Shown here piece after piece: positions 5,608-63,575 of a stretch of 64,000 nucleotides of DNA. The stretch is from positions 62,001 to 126,000 of the forward strand of contig RXIY01000021.1 of the NCBI GenBank assembly GCA_003963405.1, in the 5' to 3' direction. A program made the position numbers and the translations under genes. Within the stretch, counting starts at the first letter, position 1. Every line of letters begins with the position of its first letter. Source of the stretch: Hyphomicrobiales bacterium (GTDB taxonomy: Bacteria > Pseudomonadota > Alphaproteobacteria > Rhizobiales > Beijerinckiaceae). Below the pieces are notes generated by a model, which worked only from the letters and a program-made list of their open reading frames with translations, was not told where the DNA came from and searched no databases.

Positions 5608-6030
5608 ATGAGGATTGCAACGCTGTCGACGAGTGTTCAACCGGGAGCGGGACGCCCCTCCCAGCCGAGGATCGGCGCCAAAGCGCCGCCAGGCGGCTCG
5701 ATCGTGCAAAATGTTCTCAAGGCTCTGGACGAAACAAAGGCCGAGGACGTCATCTCCATCGATCTGCGCGGAAAGACCGCCCTCGCCGATGAAATGATCA
5801 TCGCGACCGGGCGCTCGACCGTGCATGTCGGAGCCATCGCCGACAAGGCGGTCCGGGCTCTCAAGGATGCGGGCGTCGTCGCGCGCATCGAGGGCCTGCC
5901 CCAGTGCGACTGGGTGCTGATCGACGCCGGCGACGTCATCGTCCACATTTTCCGTCCCGAGGTGCGCCAGTTCTACAACCTCGAGAAGATGTGGGGCGGC
6001 GACCGGCCTGTCGAGATTCGGCTCGTTTGA
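5608..6030 (+). CDS. rsfS: Ribosome silencing factor RsfS
   Basis: From the ATG at 5608 the protein has 140 residues. The conserved RsfS/Iojap domain begins at VLKALDETKAEDVISIDL and continues through ADEMIIATGRSTVHVGAIAD and WVLIDAGDVIVHIFRPEVRQFYNLEKMW, the family signature end. RsfS binds ribosomal protein L14 and keeps the subunits apart in stationary phase or starvation. The frame is open further upstream (to 5548), and a GTG at 5704 would give a 108-residue protein, which is the more common family length. The start is therefore uncertain. rlmH follows after 30 bp, the usual partner in bacteria. Confidence 0.93.
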   Translation: MRIATLSTSVQPGAGRPSQPRIGAKAPPGGSIVQNVLKALDETKAEDVISIDLRGKTALADEMIIATGRSTVHVGAIADKAVRALKDAGVVARIEGLPQCDWVLIDAGDVIVHIFRPEVRQFYNLEKMWGGDRPVEIRLV

Positions 6031-6060
6031 CGCCTTAGACCGCGTCGGGCAGGCCGTTTC

Positions 6061-6540
6061 GTGCGATTGGGGCTCATTTGCGTGGGTCGGCTGAAGGCTG
6101 GTCCCGAGCGAGAGATTTACGCGCGCTACGCCGAGCGCATCGCCGCGCTGCGGCGCATCGGCCTGGAAGGGCTCGACCTCAGGGAACTGGACGAAAGCAA
6201 GGCCAGGAACGCCGCCGAGCGCATGGCGCGGGAGGCGGAAGACATGCTGGCGGTCCTCCCGGCCGACGCCGGGCTCGTCGTCTTCGACGAGCGGGGCAGG
6301 GCGGCGGATAGCGCGGCCTTCGCGAACTTCATCGGCCGCGAGCGAGACGCCGGCCGCAAGGCGCTCTGGTTTGCCGTGGGTGGTTCGGAAGGGCTAGACG
6401 CCAGTATCCGCGCGCGGGCGACGGCGGTCTTTTCGTTCGGGGCGATGACGCTGCCGCATCAACTCGTGCGCATTCTGGCGGCCGAGCAGATTTACCGGGC
6501 CATGACAATCCTGTCGGGCCATCCCTATCACCGGGCCTGA
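6061..6540 (+). CDS. rlmH: 23S rRNA (pseudouridine1915-N3)-methyltransferase
   Basis: A 159-residue SPOUT-class methyltransferase beginning at a GTG. The cofactor-knot motifs FAVGGSEGLD and the C-terminal LPHQLVRILAAEQIYRAM plus GHPYHRA are diagnostic of RlmH. It methylates pseudouridine 1915 in helix 69 of 23S rRNA on assembled 70S ribosomes. The length matches the family (about 155-160). It sits 30 bp downstream of rsfS in an apparent two-gene operon. Its last 13 bases overlap the 3' end of the convergent gene that follows. Confidence 0.97.
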   Translation: MRLGLICVGRLKAGPEREIYARYAERIAALRRIGLEGLDLRELDESKARNAAERMAREAEDMLAVLPADAGLVVFDERGRAADSAAFANFIGRERDAGRKALWFAVGGSEGLDASIRARATAVFSFGAMTLPHQLVRILAAEQIYRAMTILSGHPYHRA

Positions 6541-7214
6541 CCATCGGGCCCTGGCCCCTCCCGCAGATAGCGCCCGTTCACCCAGCCGGCCTGTTTGCGG
6601 GCGTCTTCCACGCGGCACCAGCGCTGGCCACCCGTGTTGCGGCAACCAAGATTCCTGAGCGCCGCCCCATTCGGCGCGTCCGCGACGAGCCTTGCCTTCG
6701 GCGAGGACGTCGCCCGAATCTTGAGCGCGTCCCCGGCCGGAACACCCGTCACCTGCCAGTAATCCGGGCCGCCCGTGAGCCCATCGGCGAAATCAGGGCC
6801 TTTTTCCGCCGCTGCTTTCTTTTGTCCGACTTCGATCGCGAGTGTGTAGGGGGAGACCGCGCCCCGGCGCGCCTCATTGCGCATGAGATAGACGCGGGCG
6901 GTGTAATCGCCGCTGATGGCCGCCTCGCCTGTGAAGATCGAGCCCGCGATAGAGCCATTGAAGAGCGCCTCCTCCGAGCCCGGCGGGTTCACGTTGAAGA
7001 AGGCTTTGCGGCTCGTGAGTCTGATCTTGATCGACTCGCCTGCGCCAGCGGGGAAGACGTAGTCATGCGTGTCGTAGCCCTTCACGGCGCCCCTGACGAC
7101 GGCGCGTCCGTCCTTGAAAGAGACCCGAAGAACTTGCGACGCGTCCTGCGCTTGGGCGCAGGGCGACAAGGCGCCGAGGGCAAGCGCCGCAGCGAGGGTT
7201 AAAAACTGGCGCAT
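6528..7214 (-). CDS. Secreted protein with C-terminal bacterial SH3-like domain
   Basis: From the ATG at 7214 this is a 228-residue protein with a clear Sec signal peptide (MRQFLTLAAALALG to CAQAQ, residues 1-22). A beta-rich middle part (about 30-130, with VFPAGAGESIKIRL) resembles periplasmic inhibitor-type domains. The C-terminal domain (about 165-225, with DALKIRATSSPKARLV and GWVNGRYLRE) matches bacterial SH3 domains, which usually bind cell-wall peptides. Its exact role is unknown. The frame is open to 7277, but the signal peptide fixes the start at 7214. It converges on rlmH with a 13-bp overlap of the 3' ends. Confidence 0.8.
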   Translation of the reverse strand: MRQFLTLAAALALGALSPCAQAQDASQVLRVSFKDGRAVVRGAVKGYDTHDYVFPAGAGESIKIRLTSRKAFFNVNPPGSEEALFNGSIAGSIFTGEAAISGDYTARVYLMRNEARRGAVSPYTLAIEVGQKKAAAEKGPDFADGLTGGPDYWQVTGVPAGDALKIRATSSPKARLVADAPNGAALRNLGCRNTGGQRWCRVEDARKQAGWVNGRYLREGPGPDGQAR

Positions 7215-7316
7215 AGGACTTATCCATGGATCAAACCACGGCACTATGCGCCCGTCCCCCGCCGAGGGCCAGAGCATAAAGCGCCGCAGGCGGAGCAGCG
7301 CGCCAGTGCGCCGCTT

Positions 7317-7784
7317 TTACTGCGGCAGATGCTCTTCGCGCGCCGGCCTTTCCGCGCGAACCGCTTGCAGGCGCTCCATGGCGTCCTCCACCTGCCGGAA
7401 ATCGCCGCGCAAGGCTTTCAGCGCGTAGCGTTCGCGGTCGATTTCGCGCTGGGTGCGGAAGCCCAGGCGACGGAGAACCGGGAGCGGCGGACACCAGCCC
7501 TGAAGGGCGTGTTGCAGCAGGAAGCCCGCGACGAGGACGGGCAGGGCGAGCCACCGGCGATCGACGGCGAAGCCGAGGGTGAGCCCGGCGAGGGCGAAGA
7601 TCGAGGCGTTGGCCTCGAGCGCCCGCTCGATGTCCCATTCCCGGTCGAGATGATGGAGCCTTTCCTCGATCCGTTCAGGATGCAGGGCAAAATAGACGAG
7701 CCGCTCCAGCATTTGCGCGTGGATCGTGCGGTTGACGGCCTCGTCGGTATGGCGCTGGACCCGGTCCGCGGCGACGGTAGCCAT
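7317..7784 (-). CDS. DUF2892-type small membrane protein
   Basis: The coding part is the last 155 residues of a much longer minus-strand frame that otherwise shadows purA. I start it at the ATG at 7784 (MATVAADRVQRHTDEAVN). Residues about 50-90 (ANASIFALAGLTLGFAV, then LALPVLVAGFLLQHALQG) form two hydrophobic segments as in DUF2892/YgaP-like inner-membrane proteins. The C-terminus (EIDRERYALKALRGDF and onward) is charged and helical. Function is not known. It diverges from purA. Confidence 0.7.
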   Translation of the reverse strand: MATVAADRVQRHTDEAVNRTIHAQMLERLVYFALHPERIEERLHHLDREWDIERALEANASIFALAGLTLGFAVDRRWLALPVLVAGFLLQHALQGWCPPLPVLRRLGFRTQREIDRERYALKALRGDFRQVEDAMERLQAVRAERPAREEHLPQ

Positions 7785-49909: not shown

Positions 49910-49955
49910 TGGTGCCGGTTGAGGGATTCGAACCCCCGACCTACTGATTACAAAT
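49910..49955 (-). repeat. 3' half of tRNA-Thr(TGT): attachment site of the integrated element
   Basis: On the minus strand the sequence from 49955 to 49910 reads anticodon loop TTTGTAA (anticodon TGT), the 3' anticodon stem, T arm GGGGGTTCGAATCCC, acceptor AACCGGC, A and CCA, matching tRNA-Thr. To the right of 49955 the tRNA 5' half is missing and unrelated sequence starts. This is the usual scar of integration into a tRNA gene. The restored full tRNA should lie at the far end of the element, beyond 64,000. The integrase gene lies 322 bp away. Confidence 0.8.
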
Positions 49956-50276
49956 TCGTATAGCGTTTTACGATCCAGAACGCTCAAATTCGATTATCTG
50001 CGAAAATCAATGGGAAACGACGAGGGTGACTACGATGGAATACGCGCCAGCTGCGCTGAATTCGCTCTCTTCTGGTGACACATTGCTGACACGGCGCGCG
50101 AGGTGTAGCACCTTCCACGACGCTGAAATGCAGAGAGACGAGATAGAGAGTAGGGGTCAAAAGCCGTCCAAGCCGTCCAGGTCGTCTTAAATCACGTAAA
50201 ATCAAAAAGATATGCATGGACGGCTGTTGTCCTAAAGCCGTCCATCAGGTCGTCCAATTCGAGGCCAGGTCGTCCA
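49956..50276. other. Element left end: gene-free region before the integrase
   Basis: No coding frame of merit is present in these 321 bp. The region holds the attachment-site flank and the set of 9-bp repeats described separately. Short frames on the minus strand run through the tRNA fragment and are rejected. Confidence 0.6.
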
Positions 50277-50278
50277 AT
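50162..50278. repeat. Cluster of 9-bp repeats before the integrase gene
   Basis: The motif AGCCGTCCA occurs at 50162-50170, 50171-50179 and 50236-50244, and inverted (TGGACGGCT) at 50217-50225. The related GGTCGTCCA occurs at 50248-50256 and 50268-50276, exactly 20 bp apart, and a further degenerate GGTCGTCTT lies at 50180-50188. The last copy reaches the int start codon. Arm-type integrase sites next to an att core have this appearance; autoregulatory operators are the alternative. Confidence 0.65.
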
Positions 50279-51527
50279 GCCAAAAATCACCAAACGCATG
50301 ATCGACGCGCTTCAAATTGACGCAAGTCGCAGAATTTATTGGGATTCCGAGCTGAAAGGGTTCGGGCTCATCGTCCTACCGAGCGGCGTTCGCTCATTCA
50401 TCCTGCAATATCGAAACAAGGATGGCCGGCAGCGGCGTCTCACGCTGGGGCGGTATGGCGTGATCACACCAGACCAGGGGCGCAAGGCCGCGCAACTGGC
50501 GCTGGCGCGCGTCCTAGACGGAGAAGATCCCGTGACAGAAAGGCGCACTGCGCGGGCCGCTCCGCTCCTCGACGATCTCCTCGACCGCTATCTCGCCGAG
50601 CATGTAGACGTGCATAATGCCACGCGGACTCGCGCAGATGTCCGCGCCACGCTCACGCGCCACGTGCGGCCGCGGCTCGGCGCGCTCAAGGCGGCGGCTG
50701 TGACGCGCGAGGATGTTTCGAAGCTTCACCACGCGCTGCAAGACACCCCGAGAACAGCCAATTTTTGCCTCGCGATCTTGTCGAAGGCATTCAATCTAGC
50801 GGCTGACTGGGGGATGCGGCCGAAGGGCTCCAACCCGTGCGAGGGAATTCGCCGCTATGATGAGAACAGCAGAGAAAGGTTCATCAACGCGGACGAACTG
50901 TCACGTCTCGGGCAGGTCTTGCATGAGGTAGAAACGATCGGGCTTCCTTGGCGCCTGAGGCAAAACGCGAAGGGAAAGCACCGGGCGAAAGAAGGAAATC
51001 AGCGTGTCCGCGTCAATCCCGGGGCTCTCGCGGCGATAAGACTCGCGCTTTTCACCGGCGCCAGGATCTCCGAGATACTTGAACTGCGCTGGGAGCATGT
51101 CGATTTCGAAGCATGCACGCTCGCTCTTCCGGAGCGCAAGGGCGGCAAGAGACGACGCCACCCGGTCAGCGCGGCGGCAATGGAGATCATCTACGGCATT
51201 TCCCGCATCGAGGGATCGCCCTGGGTTTTATCCGCGCCGAAGGACGCGACTGCCCATTTGAGCATTTTCCTGGTGGAAAAAGCCTGGCGGCGCATCCGCG
51301 CCTGCGCCGGTCTAGACGATGTTCGCATTCACGACTTGCGCCACACAGTAGGAACATATGCGTCGCAGTCTGGGGTCAACGCCTTCGCGGTGCGCGACCT
51401 GCTCCGGCACACGAACACGTTAATGACGAACCGATACGTCCAACGCGACGCAGAGCCGATCCGCGCGCTTTCGGAAGAGATCGGACAGAGGATCGCCGAA
51501 GGTCTCGCCACAAAACCAATCGAATAG
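50277..51527 (+). CDS. int: Tyrosine integrase (tRNA-targeting, DUF4102 type)
   Basis: A 416-residue recombinase. The N-terminal arm-binding domain (residues 1-90, ALQIDASRRIYWDSELKGFGLIVLPSGVRSFILQYR) is DUF4102-like. A core-binding domain follows. The catalytic residues are R263 (GARISE), K291 (GGKRRRHP), H352 and R355 (IHDLRHT), H378 (RHTN) and the nucleophile Y387 (TNRYVQ). All are intact, so the protein should be active. It lies next to the tRNA-Thr scar, the usual place for a satellite or prophage integrase. Confidence 0.95.
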   Translation: MPKITKRMIDALQIDASRRIYWDSELKGFGLIVLPSGVRSFILQYRNKDGRQRRLTLGRYGVITPDQGRKAAQLALARVLDGEDPVTERRTARAAPLLDDLLDRYLAEHVDVHNATRTRADVRATLTRHVRPRLGALKAAAVTREDVSKLHHALQDTPRTANFCLAILSKAFNLAADWGMRPKGSNPCEGIRRYDENSRERFINADELSRLGQVLHEVETIGLPWRLRQNAKGKHRAKEGNQRVRVNPGALAAIRLALFTGARISEILELRWEHVDFEACTLALPERKGGKRRRHPVSAAAMEIIYGISRIEGSPWVLSAPKDATAHLSIFLVEKAWRRIRACAGLDDVRIHDLRHTVGTYASQSGVNAFAVRDLLRHTNTLMTNRYVQRDAEPIRALSEEIGQRIAEGLATKPIE

Positions 51528-53665: not shown

Positions 53666-54352
53666 ATGAAACACCTTTCCGGCACTATCGTTCGCAAATC
53701 AAATCTCGGCGCCCGTCAAATTTTCGTGACAGCAAGCACGGAAATACGCGACCGACAAAACGACATCATGAGCATGTCGGGCTGTGACCTGACCTTCTAC
53801 AAATCCAACCCGGTCGTTCTCGCTAATCACGACCCTCTTGCGCCCATCGGCAATGCAGCCCCATTTATCGTGAACGGCAAGCTACAGGCAACCATCACCT
53901 TCGCACCCGAGGGGGCGTCCAAGACCGCGGACGAATATTGCGCCCTTGCCAAAGCGGGCGTCATTAGCGCGATCAGCATTGGGTTCGAGCCAACCGATTG
54001 GGAACTCCTCTCTGGCGGCGGCTGCAGATACACGTCTTGGACGCTGCTCGAAATCTCGCTCGTCGCCGTTCCTGCGAATCCGGAGGCCACCATCGTGCAA
54101 CGCTCCTATCGCCCCGCCGCTCGAGCCAATAGATTCGCTGATATCTCTCGTCTTTCTGAGATAGGAAAGCAATACGAGCGCGACGAAGCCCGCTCTATCG
54201 CCACTGCGCCGACCAGTGCGGACTATGTTCATCTGATGCGCGAGAAGATGGAGCGAGAGCAGCTTGCCGCGCATGCCGCTACCCGTGAGAGCGACCCATT
54301 CGTGTTGCGTCAGAAACGGGTGTGCGAAATTGAAGCGCTTCGGCGCGAATAA
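53666..54352 (+). CDS. HK97-family phage prohead protease
   Basis: A 228-residue protein. The pattern ASTEIRDRQNDIMSMSGCDL, NPVVLANHDPLAPIGNA, YCALAKAGVISAISIGFEPTDWE and WTLLEISLVAVPANPEATIV is that of prohead serine proteases (peptidase family U35), with His in LANHD and Ser in AISIGF or SLVAV. These process the capsid precursor in tailed phages. No major capsid gene follows; a strong terminator does. That makes it an isolated morphogenesis gene in this element. Confidence 0.88.
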   Translation: MKHLSGTIVRKSNLGARQIFVTASTEIRDRQNDIMSMSGCDLTFYKSNPVVLANHDPLAPIGNAAPFIVNGKLQATITFAPEGASKTADEYCALAKAGVISAISIGFEPTDWELLSGGGCRYTSWTLLEISLVAVPANPEATIVQRSYRPAARANRFADISRLSEIGKQYERDEARSIATAPTSADYVHLMREKMEREQLAAHAATRESDPFVLRQKRVCEIEALRRE

Positions 54353-58975: not shown

Positions 58976-59287
58976 ATGTCGCCCCATGGCCGCATTGCCT
59001 TTCGCCGTATAGCTGAGAAAGCGGCCGCGCATTCGGAACTCATTGTGACACGTTGGCTTCCGGACGGCCGCCGCGAAGCCGGAGAATGGGTCTCGAGAAA
59101 CCCCAAGCGCGCGGATAAACGCCTCGGGTCGTTCAAGATCAATCTTAAGACTGGCGCGTGGGGAGATTTCGCGACCGACGATCGAGGGCGCGATCTCATT
59201 TCGCTTGCGGCCTTCCTTTTCGACATCAAACAGCGCGACGCGGCGATCCGCGTCGCTGAAATGCTCGGCATTTTCCCCTATGAATGA
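58976..59287 (+). CDS. Short primase-associated protein
   Basis: A 103-residue protein from the ATG at 58976, 2 bp after the AlpA stop. The pattern LPDGRREAGEWVSRNPKRADKRLGSFKINLKTGAWGDFATDDRGRDLISLAAFLFDI resembles the N-terminal domain of phage and plasmid primases (the segment before TOPRIM), but with no zinc cysteines. Its stop overlaps the helicase-primase start by 8 bp, so the primase seems split into two coupled proteins. Confidence 0.7.
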   Translation: MSPHGRIAFRRIAEKAAAHSELIVTRWLPDGRREAGEWVSRNPKRADKRLGSFKINLKTGAWGDFATDDRGRDLISLAAFLFDIKQRDAAIRVAEMLGIFPYE

Positions 59288-61433
59288 CCCCTTCGCGCCG
59301 ATCTCCGGCGTAAAACCAAATTTGCGCGTCGTTTCGAGCGACCACGTCATCGTCTCGCCAGTTCCGCCTGACGCGCCTAAATCGCCGGAGCGTCATCCAA
59401 GACTTGGAGTCCCTTCGGCCCGGTGGGAATATCGCAACGCGTCCGGCGAGCTTTTAGGCTTCGCCTGCCGCTTTGATCCCAAGGGGGGAAAGCAATTCAG
59501 GCCGCTCGCGCTCTACCGCGCGCCCGGCGGCGCCCTTGAATGGAGGTGGGAGAGCTCGCCCGCCCCGCGTCCGCTCTACGGTCTCGACCGACTCGCCGCG
59601 TCGCCCGATAGCGACGTCGTTGTCTGTGAGGGCGAGAAATCCGCAGATGCGGCGGCGCGGCTGCTGCCGAAATGCGTCGCCGTTACCTCGCCGAATGGAG
59701 CGAAGAGCGCCAACAAGGCTGATTGGGGTCCGCTTCGCGGCCGGCGCGTCGTCATCTGGCCCGACGCTGACGAGCCGGGCTCCAAATATGCCGAGACGGT
59801 AGCCGAGCTCGCTTATGAGGCCGGCGCTATCTCCGTGGCGATCGTCGTGCGGCCGGCCAACGTAAAAGACGGTTGGGACGCAGCCGACGCGGAAGATGAG
59901 GGCCGCAACACGGAATGGGCTACTGAATTGATCACCCGGGCGACGGCCGTCGCCGCGCCGTCTCAGACCCGAGGCGCCAATGGTCGCGCACGCTCTGGCG
60001 CCGACGGCAAACGTCGGCGCACGCCACAGCGCGACTTGCTTAGCCAGCTCGCGGAAAGCTGCTCGTTTTGGCATGCGCCAAATGGCGATGCGTATGTGAC
60101 CTTTCCCGTCAATGATCATCGCGAAAACTGGAAGGTTCGCTCGCCCGAATTCAAACGGTGGATGACCTGCCAGGCTTATGAAAACCTCGGTCAGGTCCCG
60201 GGTGCCCAGGCCGTGGAGGATGTGCTTCGGTTTCTCGAGGGCCGCGCGATAAACGATGGGCCCGAGCGTAAGCCTTGGCTGCGCGTGGGTGAGGGCGGAG
60301 GAAAATGGTATATCGACGTAGGCGACCCAAAGTGGCGCGTTGTCGAGATAAGCGCTGTCGGCTGGGAAATTCGAGAGCGCCATGATCTTCCGCTTGTGCG
60401 TTCGCGATCTATGCAGTCATTACCGATGCCCCAGCGCGGGGGATACGTCGACGACATGCGACGCTTCGTCAATGTTCGGGACGAGGACAGCTTCAAAGCC
60501 GTAGTCGCGTGGCAACTGGCCGCGCTTCGCCCAAGCGGGCCTTACCCTGTTTTGTTGATCCAGGGCGAACAAGGCAGCGGCAAATCCGTCCTTTCACGCC
60601 TATTGCGGTCCATCGTTGACCCCAATCTCGCGCCAATCCGAACAGCGCCGAAAGACGAAGAAGACCTTCTAATAGCTGCCAAGAACGGACACTTGGTAGC
60701 GCTCGATAATGTGTCTCGGATCGATCCCATGATGGCCGACGCACTCTGCCGCGTCGCGACCGGTGGCGGCTTTTCAACGCGAGTAAAATATACGAACGAC
60801 GAGGAGCATGTGGTGTGGGCTTGTAACCCAATCCTGGCGAATGGAATTCCCTCGCTCGCCGATCGGCCCGACCTCGCGAGCCGCGCGCTAATCGTCCATT
60901 TAACTGCCATACCGGACGAGGCGCGTCAGCCTGAGGACGAGTATCTCGATGACTGGTCACGAACGGCTCCCTTTGTCTTCGGCGCGCTTTGCGGTGTCCT
61001 TTCTGCCGCGCTCGCTCGCCTCCCAACGGTAAAGCTGGCCCGTGCCTCGCGCATGGCAGACTTCGAAAAATTAATCGTCGCAGCGTCCCCGGAGCTCGGA
61101 TGGGAGCTTGACGAGTTCTCGGCCGCCTATTCCGCAATCCGCCGCGATCTCGACGAAGCGGCATTCGAGGCGGACCCAGTGGCCATGGCGATAGATGGAC
61201 TAATCGCAGAGGAATATCCGCGAGGATGGTCGGGCACGGCAACGCGGCTCCTGGATCTGCTAATGCAGCGTGTTCCGGATGGAATGAAGCGCTCGCGCGC
61301 GTGGCCACAGACGGCTCAGGGGCTCGGCAACAGAATCGAGCGCGCAACGCCGCTACTACGTCGGCGCGGCATCACCGTCGAGCGCCGGCATAGCGGCGAG
61401 CGAATGATTACCATCGCTCCTGTCGATAGCTGA
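59280..61433 (+). CDS. TOPRIM/P-loop primase-helicase of the element
   Basis: A 717-residue replication protein starting at the ATG at 59280. The TOPRIM-like part (about residues 100-200) has VVVCEGEKSADAAARLLP and VVIWPDADEPGSKYAE (Glu and DxD metal site). A helicase-type P-loop is in VLLIQGEQGSGKSVLSRLL (about residues 420-440), with LVALDNVSRIDPMMADALCR as Walker B-like. A C-terminal domain (about 600-717) ends MKRSRAWPQTAQGLGNRIE and onward. It likely primes and unwinds the element's replication origin. The C-terminal domain is partly repeated downstream (see below). Confidence 0.87.
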   Translation: MNDPFAPISGVKPNLRVVSSDHVIVSPVPPDAPKSPERHPRLGVPSARWEYRNASGELLGFACRFDPKGGKQFRPLALYRAPGGALEWRWESSPAPRPLYGLDRLAASPDSDVVVCEGEKSADAAARLLPKCVAVTSPNGAKSANKADWGPLRGRRVVIWPDADEPGSKYAETVAELAYEAGAISVAIVVRPANVKDGWDAADAEDEGRNTEWATELITRATAVAAPSQTRGANGRARSGADGKRRRTPQRDLLSQLAESCSFWHAPNGDAYVTFPVNDHRENWKVRSPEFKRWMTCQAYENLGQVPGAQAVEDVLRFLEGRAINDGPERKPWLRVGEGGGKWYIDVGDPKWRVVEISAVGWEIRERHDLPLVRSRSMQSLPMPQRGGYVDDMRRFVNVRDEDSFKAVVAWQLAALRPSGPYPVLLIQGEQGSGKSVLSRLLRSIVDPNLAPIRTAPKDEEDLLIAAKNGHLVALDNVSRIDPMMADALCRVATGGGFSTRVKYTNDEEHVVWACNPILANGIPSLADRPDLASRALIVHLTAIPDEARQPEDEYLDDWSRTAPFVFGALCGVLSAALARLPTVKLARASRMADFEKLIVAASPELGWELDEFSAAYSAIRRDLDEAAFEADPVAMAIDGLIAEEYPRGWSGTATRLLDLLMQRVPDGMKRSRAWPQTAQGLGNRIERATPLLRRRGITVERRHSGERMITIAPVDS

Positions 61434-61454
61434 TCTTCGCGGCGCGGCCTCCCC

Positions 61455-61614
61455 GGCGCTCGGATGGAATTGACGAGTTCCCGGACGCCTATCCCGCGAT
61501 CCGCCGCGATCTTGACGAAGCGGCCTTCGAGGCGGACCCTGTGGCCATGGCGATAGATTGCCTCATTACAGAGCAATGCCCGGGAGGGTCAGGCACGGCC
61601 ACGCGGCTCCTAGT
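61455..61614 (+). pseudogene. Partial second copy of the primase C-terminal domain (left piece)
   Basis: This stretch codes for DEFPDAYPAIRRDLDEAAFE and ADPVAMAIDCLITEQCPGG, close to residues about 615-660 of the primase-helicase (DEFSAAYSAIRRDLDEAAFE, ADPVAMAIDGLIAEEYPRG). DNA similarity to about 61093-61250 is obvious. It has no start codon of its own and is broken by the inverted-repeat element at 61615. The matching continuation appears at 63434-63575. Confidence 0.8.
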
Positions 61615-63440
61615 GGTCCAAATCTAACACTTGGGTTCCCTTGGCAGGAGGGCCGAACACTAGAGTCCCCAATGCGCCAGGAACGGACGTCGGGTCCGCA
61701 GTCTGGACCGACATCTCGCAACGACACCGTAGCCTCACCGCTCGGGACTTCCGAGCGTGGCTCGCTGCTTCGCTTCCCTTGACTTGTTAGGATCTTCGAT
61801 CGCCCCGACCGACTGGATGTATTTCGAAATATACTCCGGCGGCAGGCCGTGTTCTCTGCCACCTGCTAGGACAAAGTCCTTGTACCAGCTATAGGGTTTG
61901 AGGCTGTCGTCGATGTAGTCGGCGGTGGCGAGATAGGTAAGAACCTTCCGCCTGCGACCTTTGTCGTCGATGACAGTGACCATCGCGTGCTCGTAGCCGC
62001 TGCCGACGCCTTCGGCCTCATCTAGCTTGGCACGCTCGGCAGGGTCAAAGCTGAAAAGGACTCCGATTACGTTTTCGTTGGAACTGGCAAATGCGTTGCA
62101 TTTCCCGGATTTGTCCATGCTGCTTTTATGGAAGCGAAGCGCATGACCGGGCAAGGTAGCAATACCGAGCGGCTTGCAACTAGGCATGCGCTTAGACAAT
62201 CGGGCGGTCGACATATTGGACCCGTAGGCAAAATAGACGACCGGATCCGGTGGCCCGGTCTCTGTTATCTTCAGAGGCTCGATCGGCGGATCGCCCGGCT
62301 TAAGGATCGTGCGCAGGGGTACCGTCATGATGCCGTGCTCGTTAGATTTTTCGCCTTCGCGGGTGATGATGGGCTGTCCATTCTCGAGGTCTAGGATAGG
62401 AATGGGCCTGCCGGTCCATCCGCAGTCGGCGCAGCGCGGTCGTTCCCAGAGTAAGCCGGGTGCCGCCGTATTTTCGCCCTGTTCGGGTTCGAGGTGGGGC
62501 GAGCCGCAGTTCGGGCATTCCTCAGGCACACCGCGCAGCTCGCGAACAATTAATGAGGCCGCCATGCCGCTGGCATGCTGGGTCAACGAGTGCGCCATGT
62601 CGGCATCAATCCAGGTTGCCGACTTTGAGTGCGTCAGCCAGTTGGAAAACGTCCATGCGGACTCAAGCGCACCCTTGAGGGCCCCGCGACGCTCTTTGTT
62701 GGTGTCGCCCGTCAAAAGATCGTTACAGATGATCTCCGTCCACGCGCGGAAGTTCGCGCGCTGTGGCGGTGTGTCGGTCCACACTGCTGCGTCCTGCGCG
62801 ACGCCGATCAGTTCGAGTAACGTCTCGCGGCAGCGGACGCCGACGGCCTGATAGCCCGCGAGGTTATGCGCCTGTGTCACGGCGGTGCCTGCTTCTTCCA
62901 TCTTCTCGAAGATGGGACCGAACGGGAGGATGCGGAGATCGTGTTCCTGTTGTTCTTCCGTACGCGGAATACGAAGGATCAGGCCAATATGGAAGGTCAG
63001 AGCAAGATCCATATTTGGGAACTGCTCCTGAGAATAGAGGTTTGTACCGCCCGTTATGACCCACCAGCGATCCTTGTTGGTGTGAATGTCCCATACGTCG
63101 TGGCGGGTGCTCAGGACGGTCTCCGAGTAAACCTTCTGCATGAAGGTCACTTCGAGGTCAGGTGCCTGCCATTGAAAGTATTCCCGGACATTCTCGATCT
63201 CCTCTTCGGTAGCTTTCAACACGATCATCATCTCCGCAATGCGCCGGTCGAACCGCGCTGCAAAGGATTTGCGAAACCCCTCAACAATAGTCCGATGGCG
63301 CTGATCTTCCAAAATCCAACTCGGCTTCGCAGGATGTCCGCTTTGGGTCGAGTTGGTGCAAAAAGCACGAAGGTCAGAAGCGGTGGACCTGCAATTGATG
63401 CGCTCGCTCCCGCCGCAGGAACCGAGCGTTAGATTAAACC
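61615..63440. mobile_element. Terminal-inverted-repeat element carrying a zinc-ribbon/GGCT gene, no transposase
   Basis: The left end reads GGTCCAAATCTAACACTTGG then GTTCC (61615-61639). The reverse complement of the right end (63440 leftwards) reads GGTTTAATCTAACGCTCGGT then TCC. Aligned with two single-base gaps, about 18 of 23 positions agree. The segment of 1.8 kb interrupts the second primase copy and holds only one gene, about 100 bp from each end. No transposase is inside, so movement would need one supplied elsewhere. A short piece of the primase copy (about 35 bp) is missing at the junction, and I see no clean target duplication. Confidence 0.65.
61735..63312 (-). CDS. Unknown domain - zinc ribbon - gamma-glutamylcyclotransferase fusion
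   Basis: Up to 525 residues from a TTG at 63312; ATGs at 63231 and 63228 would give about 498. Residues about 1-250 are a region of unknown fold (EFFRK-type helix, KVYSETVLSTRHDVWDIHT, RWWVITGGTNLYSQEQFPN). Residues about 285-315 hold a zinc ribbon (ECPNCGSPH and RCADCGW). The C-terminal domain has the GGCT motif VYFAYGSNMSTARLSKRMPS and a catalytic Glu candidate in LDEAEGVGSGYE. GGCT enzymes cyclise gamma-glutamyl groups. As sole cargo of an inverted-repeat element within a phage satellite, a defence role is possible but only inferred. Confidence 0.75.
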   Translation of the reverse strand: MEDQRHRTIVEGFRKSFAARFDRRIAEMMIVLKATEEEIENVREYFQWQAPDLEVTFMQKVYSETVLSTRHDVWDIHTNKDRWWVITGGTNLYSQEQFPNMDLALTFHIGLILRIPRTEEQQEHDLRILPFGPIFEKMEEAGTAVTQAHNLAGYQAVGVRCRETLLELIGVAQDAAVWTDTPPQRANFRAWTEIICNDLLTGDTNKERRGALKGALESAWTFSNWLTHSKSATWIDADMAHSLTQHASGMAASLIVRELRGVPEECPNCGSPHLEPEQGENTAAPGLLWERPRCADCGWTGRPIPILDLENGQPIITREGEKSNEHGIMTVPLRTILKPGDPPIEPLKITETGPPDPVVYFAYGSNMSTARLSKRMPSCKPLGIATLPGHALRFHKSSMDKSGKCNAFASSNENVIGVLFSFDPAERAKLDEAEGVGSGYEHAMVTVIDDKGRRRKVLTYLATADYIDDSLKPYSWYKDFVLAGGREHGLPPEYISKYIQSVGAIEDPNKSREAKQRATLGSPER

Positions 63441-63575
63441 GCTCGCGCGCGTGGCCACAGACGGCTCAGCGACTCTGCAACCGGATCGACCACGCCGCTG
63501 CTAGCCGACGCGGCATCTTCATCGAGCGTCGGCACGGCGGCGACACCACCTATCGATTGCTGACCTTCCCCGCGC
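63434..63575 (+). pseudogene. Partial second copy of the primase C-terminal domain (right piece)
   Basis: In frame the sequence codes for NRSRAWPQTAQRLCNRIDHA then SRRGIFIERRHGGDTTYRLL, matching the last about 45 residues of the primase-helicase (KRSRAWPQTAQGLGNRIERA, RRRGITVERRHSGERMI). The DNA matches 61285-61430. It continues the left piece at 61455-61614, from which it is separated by the inverted-repeat element. The reading frame is open but has no own start. Confidence 0.8.

Follow-up and report, generated by a model that had tools for sequence, protein, structure and literature searches.

Single-gene cassettes with IS630-type terminal inverted repeats in Hyphomicrobiales, and a probable member carrying a GGCT-fusion gene in a phage-satellite-like island

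Integron gene cassettes are single promiscuous genes, each a portable unit with an imperfect palindrome. Among insertion sequences, IS231 belongs to the IS4 family, and IS630 is said, from work by Tenzen and Ohtsubo in 1991, to prefer the TA in CTAG. According to the accessible text of PMC2170065, IS630 duplicates TA. Mobile insertion cassettes (MICs), as defined in the available portion of PMC3913671, are passenger genes without a transposase that lie between IS-like terminal inverted repeats (TIRs) and move as units with target duplication; MIC231A1 is moved in trans by IS231A. In the excerpted text of PMC4133298, TIMEs have Tn3-type 38-bp ends, make 5-6 bp duplications and form composites from two MITEs.

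We analyzed a stretch of 64,000 nucleotides (the window), part of contig C42 of a 4.64-Mb genome, and found a segment that is very probably a MIC, a single passenger gene with IS630-type TIRs on either side, which would have entered the 3' end of a primase gene at a CTAG. The family to which this cassette would belong is spread through Hyphomicrobiales, with a different single gene in nearly every unit examined. The cassette and its repeats are as follows:

61610-63445, no strand: whole cassette, outer tetranucleotides included (inverted repeat; left end against the family position matrix, right end with gaps only)
61610-61648, plus strand: left TIR, starting with CTAG at 61610-61613 (arm comparison and family matrix)
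63407-63445, minus strand: right TIR, its tip decayed to CGAG at 63442-63445 (arm comparison and gapped scoring)

The two arms, about 36 nt each, read CTAGTGGTCCAAATCTAACACTTGGGTTCCCTTGGCAGGAG from 61610 and CGAGCGGTTTAATCTAACGCTCGGTTCCTGCGGCGGGAG inwards from 63445. A preliminary description had reported an imperfect inverted repeat at both ends of a unit limited to 61615-63440; the repeat was confirmed in the sequence and the unit is real, with arms longer than described and true ends 5 nt further out on each side. The left end scored 39.3 bits against the family position matrix, and the right end matched the family only with gaps (gapped score 32, versus a 99th percentile of 22 for random segments). 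The local score of the inverted repeat was reached by 1 to 11 of 20,000 random equal-length island pairs, depending on scoring, and that of an 80-nt flank test by 18 of 5,000 random cases, frequencies that are not family-wise probabilities because the positions had been preselected in that description. No perfect target duplication is visible (left CTAG, right CGAG), nor is a second site known for this copy. The window copy is old, its right tip having changed and about 37 bp of the target beside that tip having been deleted, and with both tip and adjacent target damaged it may no longer move.

The cassette lies in an island that extends rightwards from 49.9 kb and contains a tyrosine integrase, a prohead-protease-like gene, regulators and a primase/helicase:

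49910-49956, no strand: copy of a 47-bp attachment site, with its partner at 126361-126407 of contig C42 (L149 462-508), about 0.4 kb past the window end
50277-51527, plus strand: tyrosine integrase (Pfam)
53666-54352: prohead-protease-like gene
59205-61433, plus strand: primase/helicase gene, whose 3' end is the intact one of two copies (PHROG and weak Pfam matches; duplication)
61440-61609, plus strand: pseudogene, left part of the second copy of the primase 3' end (duplication alignment)
63446-63567, plus strand: right part of the second copy, its homology to the primase starting again at the right tip or slightly inside it

The duplication of the primase 3' end comprises blocks of 118, 64, 38, 29 and 28 nt at 82-90% identity. 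The second copy breaks off at about 61609 and picks up again at about 63440, bearing out the earlier claim that the segment interrupts a duplicated primase C-terminus; the primase stretch lost between the two parts is about 37 nt long and corresponds to 61253-61290 of the intact copy. Across 61440-61609 and 63446-63567 this copy is about 85% identical. The duplication looks like the remnant of a second related island, perhaps fused to the first, rather than a target duplication. By our own reading the attachment site would be the 3' end of a tRNA-Thr gene with anticodon TGT (tRNA-Thr(UGU)); ARAGORN reported no tRNA there, as expected if the tRNA gene is partial. A second integrase-like gene directly follows the right attachment-site copy, an arrangement that looks like tandem satellite-like islands at one tRNA. 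The cassette segment is the last part with a long gene ahead of the right attachment site.

The segment contains one long open reading frame (ORF), which lies in a conserved block:

61735-63312, minus strand: cargo gene, a 525-aa ORF (Pfam; alignment of 42 sequences; Foldseek)
61672-63352, minus strand: DNA block conserved with the gene, made up of a promoter-like region, the gene and a 3' region (blastn against 47 loci; flanks of 28 loci)

The encoded protein has GGACT/AIG2 domains at its C-terminus, and its conserved start is, by our own reading, probably a GTG near 63222 or one of the ATGs just upstream. A YGSN loop marks gamma-glutamylcyclotransferases, and the cargo alignment contains YFAYGSNM (42 sequences). 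The C-terminal part belongs to the gamma-glutamylcyclotransferase (AIG2-like) family by a Pfam match above cut-off, and the cargo matches human GGCT in a PDB profile search (E 2.4e-18) and 2i5t_B in Foldseek (E 8.7e-10). Four invariant cysteines probably form a zinc ribbon. The helical region weakly resembles HEPN domains in Foldseek (4nqf_A at probability 0.99 but E 0.033, with 2q00_A and 7bxo_F likewise weak), and the structure model has a mean pLDDT of 72 and a pTM of 0.39. HEPN domains have a motif of the R-x4-6-H type; the N-terminal part of the cargo has an invariant N195-W196-L197-x-H199. In Pfam this part matched nothing at E<=0.01, and its single NCBIfam match fell well short of the cut-off. 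Compared with known defense systems in PADLOC, the protein matched no family at E<=0.1. The cargo is perhaps a stress or phage-defense factor, a guess from fold and mobility. The open-access literature, anti-phage work included, yielded no paper on the combination of GGCT and HEPN domains in such text as is freely available. Proteins of about 320 aa (L072-L081, L089 and L012-L014), mostly hypothetical where annotated, have the N-terminal domain and zinc ribbon and lack the GGCT domain.

Full-length relatives of the cargo at 73-89% identity number 28 (27 among the 47 loci and one plasmid copy), in diverse alphaproteobacteria and one Paraburkholderia. Among the matches listed, the flanks of these loci differ mutually, except for a relaxase-traG junction common to L040, L049 and L050. 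In these three (about 5900-7650) the GGCT/HEPN-like gene sits between the relaxase and traG of conjugative elements; plasmid relatives of those ICEs (L094-L098) lack the gene, and the junction is not exactly placeable. The conserved block ends inside the window's terminal repeats, and the relatives contain TTGAAA-N17-TATTGT, which we read as a putative sigma70-like promoter. No other GGCT locus among the 28 is enclosed by cassette ends, p 0.015 being reached at 2 of their 56 flanks; the cassette family therefore did not spread the gene everywhere. AAGCGGACATC, rejected as the true terminal repeat of a GGCT unit, lies near the block boundary in several loci and forms no clean terminus; a gapped pattern of this type was found in 0 of 21. 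The gene is split in L076 (4600-6000) and broken in L088 (3659-5983) by IS21 genes. The latter interruption prompted IS21 as a candidate source of the cassette ends, which found no other support and was dropped.

The family ends have the consensus CTAGTGGTCnAAATCTgACgCTTGGTaCCC, read from loci in genomes of the order, and the left arm of the window belongs to it. Outside the window, 18 unit rows (17 distinct, one empty) of 102-3775 bp carry single unrelated genes:

L185: glyoxalase-type protein
L186: small membrane protein with DUF1648
L187: small membrane protein, 63 aa
L188: alpha/beta hydrolase, in a host of the window's own genus
L195: sulfotransferase
L199: Flp pilin
L200: DUF3833 protein
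L153 (IMG/VR contig): 131-aa protein, a putative lipoprotein by our own reading
Seven plasmid units: ankyrin, SnoaL/NTF2, two hypotheticals, O-methyltransferase, HAD hydrolase and one empty 102-bp miniature
L219: AraC-type regulator
L218: 3775-bp unit holding an IS1182-like element, its transposase 114 bp from one end

IS-like TIRs flank these units, and a passenger gene without a transposase is found both in the window (GGCT/HEPN-like) and among the other cargos. Apart from the inserted IS1182 of L218, no recognized transposase was detected in the cargos, in a scan that left out the 63-aa ORF of L187.

Two other members moved as units with target duplication. Rhizobium sp. CC1099 carries the SnoaL unit twice on pCC1099_2 (834/834 identical) between unrelated flanks, and one of these sites is empty in R. 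gallicum pRGM101a, with a single CTAG and 122/124 nt matching; a second R. gallicum record has only the left flank of the unit. The L206 unit is 740/740 identical in S. sojae pSJ05684a, with unrelated flanks, and the identity ends no more than 1 nt from the predicted ends on both sides. Among the matches listed, the same 740-bp match occurs on at least three further plasmids, and pNGR234b has it at 94%. At the L206 site pNGR234a has a CTAG about where expected and a differing right flank, and was left uncounted; for L188, no match listed from 39 same-genus genomes spans the insertion point, and no empty site was seen. CTAG starts 31 of the 36 non-window ends (29 of 34 without the duplicate copy), which together with the one empty site places insertion at the TA within CTAG; since CTAG is palindromic, duplication of TA and of CTAG are indistinguishable in these data. 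The preliminary description had proposed a cargo-carrying, transposase-less inverted-repeat unit, and the same ends pairing elsewhere, identical units at unrelated sites and the empty site support that proposal. Its suggested comparison with loci lacking the insert gave a clean empty site for the SnoaL unit but not for the GGCT cassette, whose window junctions are covered by no match listed from 396 family genomes.

Inside many cassette ends lies an imperfect palindrome, GTCCGCnnGGGTSGAAAGCGGACAT, which is weakly present in the window:

61636-61695, no strand: left subterminal stretch with a weak palindromic box (p 0.045)
63360-63419, no strand: right subterminal stretch with a weak palindromic box (p 0.045); related GCGGACAT motif at 63334

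This box reached p<=0.05 at 18 of 36 ends in 18 units, window included (1.8 expected), in a test made partly circular by a consensus read from some of the tested units. Among the 18 units examined, all eight with both boxes at p<=0.05 have them in direct orientation, and the TIRs are inverted. A possible though unlikely alternative is that the mobile unit is an inner core bounded by the dispersed box, the TIRs being one of several envelopes. It draws on P. zundukense, in which the SnoaL core occurs at 98.7% without TIRs and with one internal gap, its left and right junctions (cassette nt 48 and nt 780) both falling at the box, and on the GGCT block, which ends near the box motif in several genomes (on both sides in L042, L053 and L064), with raised box scores at 6/28 upstream and 7/28 downstream flanks (1.4 expected each). 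However, the box fails to reach p<=0.05 at 22/28 and 21/28 of those flanks, it does so at just half of the cassette ends under a consensus taken partly from those same ends, the genome-wide enrichment of CNAAAGCGGACAT is modest (25 versus 7 reversed, in 18 genomes or records carrying the GGCT gene), and we know of no enzyme for such a box.

Several CNAAAGCGGACAT copies (L109-L128) read as a dispersed palindromic repeat. By our own reading, IS1182-like elements (L218 1040-2860, L237 1430-3120 and L238 1430-3130, with ends near TCCTGGCTGTGTGAAAACGG) adjoin box-like palindromes CCGCTnCCGACCC, and the dispersed box may therefore be an IS1182 target. The box could be a route of cargo exchange, a common insertion target or a conserved component of the ends. 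The direct orientation in 8/8 units and the TIR-less core with junctions at the box suggest a further reading, which we hold to be distinctly doubtful: genes would be shuffled in two layers, with IS630-type TIRs transposing the unit and the direct boxes serving as a second site at which cargos are swapped between envelopes or locations. Such a system, if true, would resemble integron cassettes carried inside MITEs.

The cassette reading also has to be set against a chance match of inverted repeats at the edges of a gene brought in by illegitimate recombination. With up to two mismatches, the narrow end pattern matched the two arms in the window's own genome, plus four isolated places elsewhere in it (two mismatches each), forming one inverted pair only, and it occurred in 4 of 199 family genomes, own genome included, which is estimated to be no more than chance; these results, the 28 GGCT loci without these ends and the window's missing target duplication all agree with coincidence. 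This early apparent refutation was overturned by the M. nodulans plasmid left end and a broader consensus. Across 72,556 plasmid records the window left arm found one similar place, on M. nodulans pMNOD01, which agrees also outside the arm (AGT before, AGGAGGGCCG after). Searching 397 genomes of the order with a pattern made from what the two have in common turned up 19 places in 13 of them, window included, versus 2 for the reversed pattern, and eight of the 19 form four inverted pairs. Plasmids gave 51 places in 33 of the 72,556 records at E up to 10, where the weakest rows may be chance; 20 of the 33 had a best E<=0.02. In 29 genomes or records, mostly picked for having ends, 74 places were found in 26, versus 0 reversed. 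A matrix from 21 ends located an inverted partner (>=34 bits) in 7 of 12 plasmid loci outside training; of the other five, L208 had a candidate of only 17.5 bits (uncounted) and four had none. In reversed sequence nothing reached 15 bits in 1.53 Mb, versus 112 forward matches at >=30 bits, a count in which overlapping loci were entered more than once. Viral contigs matched the pattern AATCTAACNCTN{0,2}GGTTCC in 13 cases, fewer than the estimated chance number, one of them (L153) being a paired unit; the stricter consensus matched none. Two solo palindromes (L192 1477 and L194 1511) consist of two cassette ends almost head to head (about 55 bp), leaving no space for a cargo. Related genomes, where the preliminary description had suggested looking for the terminal repeats, hold them as inverted pairs around single unrelated genes. 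Recurrence of the left arm in dozens of places, often paired, the movement of other members as exact units, the reversed controls and the gapped score of the right arm largely refute the chance match, which we regard as very improbable.

Equally little credence is due to the idea that a complete IS or transposon (IS630, IS1182 or another) left these ends and cargo behind, its transposase having been exchanged for cargo in this one case, since the one unit that favors it, L218, contains a transposase (IS1182-like by name of its annotated relatives) with its own inverted repeats TCCTGGCTGTGTGAAAACGG inside the unit, as in L237 and L238 (L236 gave none), indicating a later insertion, and since units with different cargos argue for a standing family. 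IS1182 was rejected as the mobilizing transposase because those repeats lie inside L218.

For the cassette reading, an element of about 1152 bp is the closest candidate link to a transposase, with full or partial copies on three cassette plasmids (pCC1099_2, pMspAR07a and pSF83666a). Both ends have CTAGTGG in L220 and L221, two copies at 99.9% identity; L215, an 85%-identical copy, encodes a DDE_3 transposase with its stop codon within the right end and has no CTAGTGG at the other end. The right end of the element agrees with the cassette consensus at 23-24 of 30 positions, the likeness being good at one end only. IS630 is our own provisional label for it, taken from DDE_3, TA/CTAG and end structure. 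No transposase gene with exactly the cassette ends on both sides was found, and the search of the own genome, which the preliminary description had suggested, turned up none. That genome does contain an IS630-like transposase gene with an open frame (G000:C121:8981-10030, L242), whose left end we read as CTAGTGTCCTG; having other ends, it is not an obvious helper. CTAG and the tips suggest IS630-family transposition in trans, in which an IS630-family (Tc1/mariner-like) transposase would recognize the CTAGTGG-type tips and move the cassette by cut and paste, duplicating TA. The window unit would have inserted at a CTAG in the 3' end of the satellite-island primase, its right tip changing and about 37 bp being deleted afterwards.

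Many alphaproteobacterial genes look lone and promiscuous without a visible vehicle, and these cassettes offer a concrete one. Their recognizable ends make such genes findable by motif search, and the cargos suggest that metabolic, regulatory, pilin and possibly defense genes move in this way. Within the freely available text of the open-access literature found, with ISfinder and subscription papers outside scope, such a cassette family is absent.

Among known systems, integron cassettes are alike in their single portable genes and imperfect palindrome, whereas the cassettes here have TIRs, with no integrase and no array seen. TIMEs and TIME-COMP elements (Tn3-derived, from Pseudomonas) are, in the excerpted text of PMC4133298, likewise non-autonomous and mobilize unrelated DNA, and differ in their Tn3-type ends and in composite units made out of two MITEs. 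IS630 and Tc1-mariner elements share CTAGTGG tips, CTAG insertion and, through the related 1152-bp element, a DDE_3 transposase; unlike them, the cassettes carry passenger genes and no recognized transposase, and no exact autonomous partner was found. The closest likeness in kind is to MICs (MIC231 of Bacillus cereus; mic-qnrD and mic-qnrS2), which also hold a passenger gene between IS-type inverted repeats without a transposase, but have IS231 or orphan ends and, in mic-qnrD, a CA duplication, whereas the ends and target here are IS630-like (CTAG). Also unlike MICs, the present cassettes are alphaproteobacterial, their cargo differs in nearly every unit examined and many have the box; they bear on a question that MICs leave, namely how one pair of ends gains so many different cargos. 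The kind, a mobile insertion cassette, is thus already known and the family apparently undescribed; its novelty lies in ends of the IS630 type, in its occurrence across alphaproteobacteria, in the number of its cargos and in the box.
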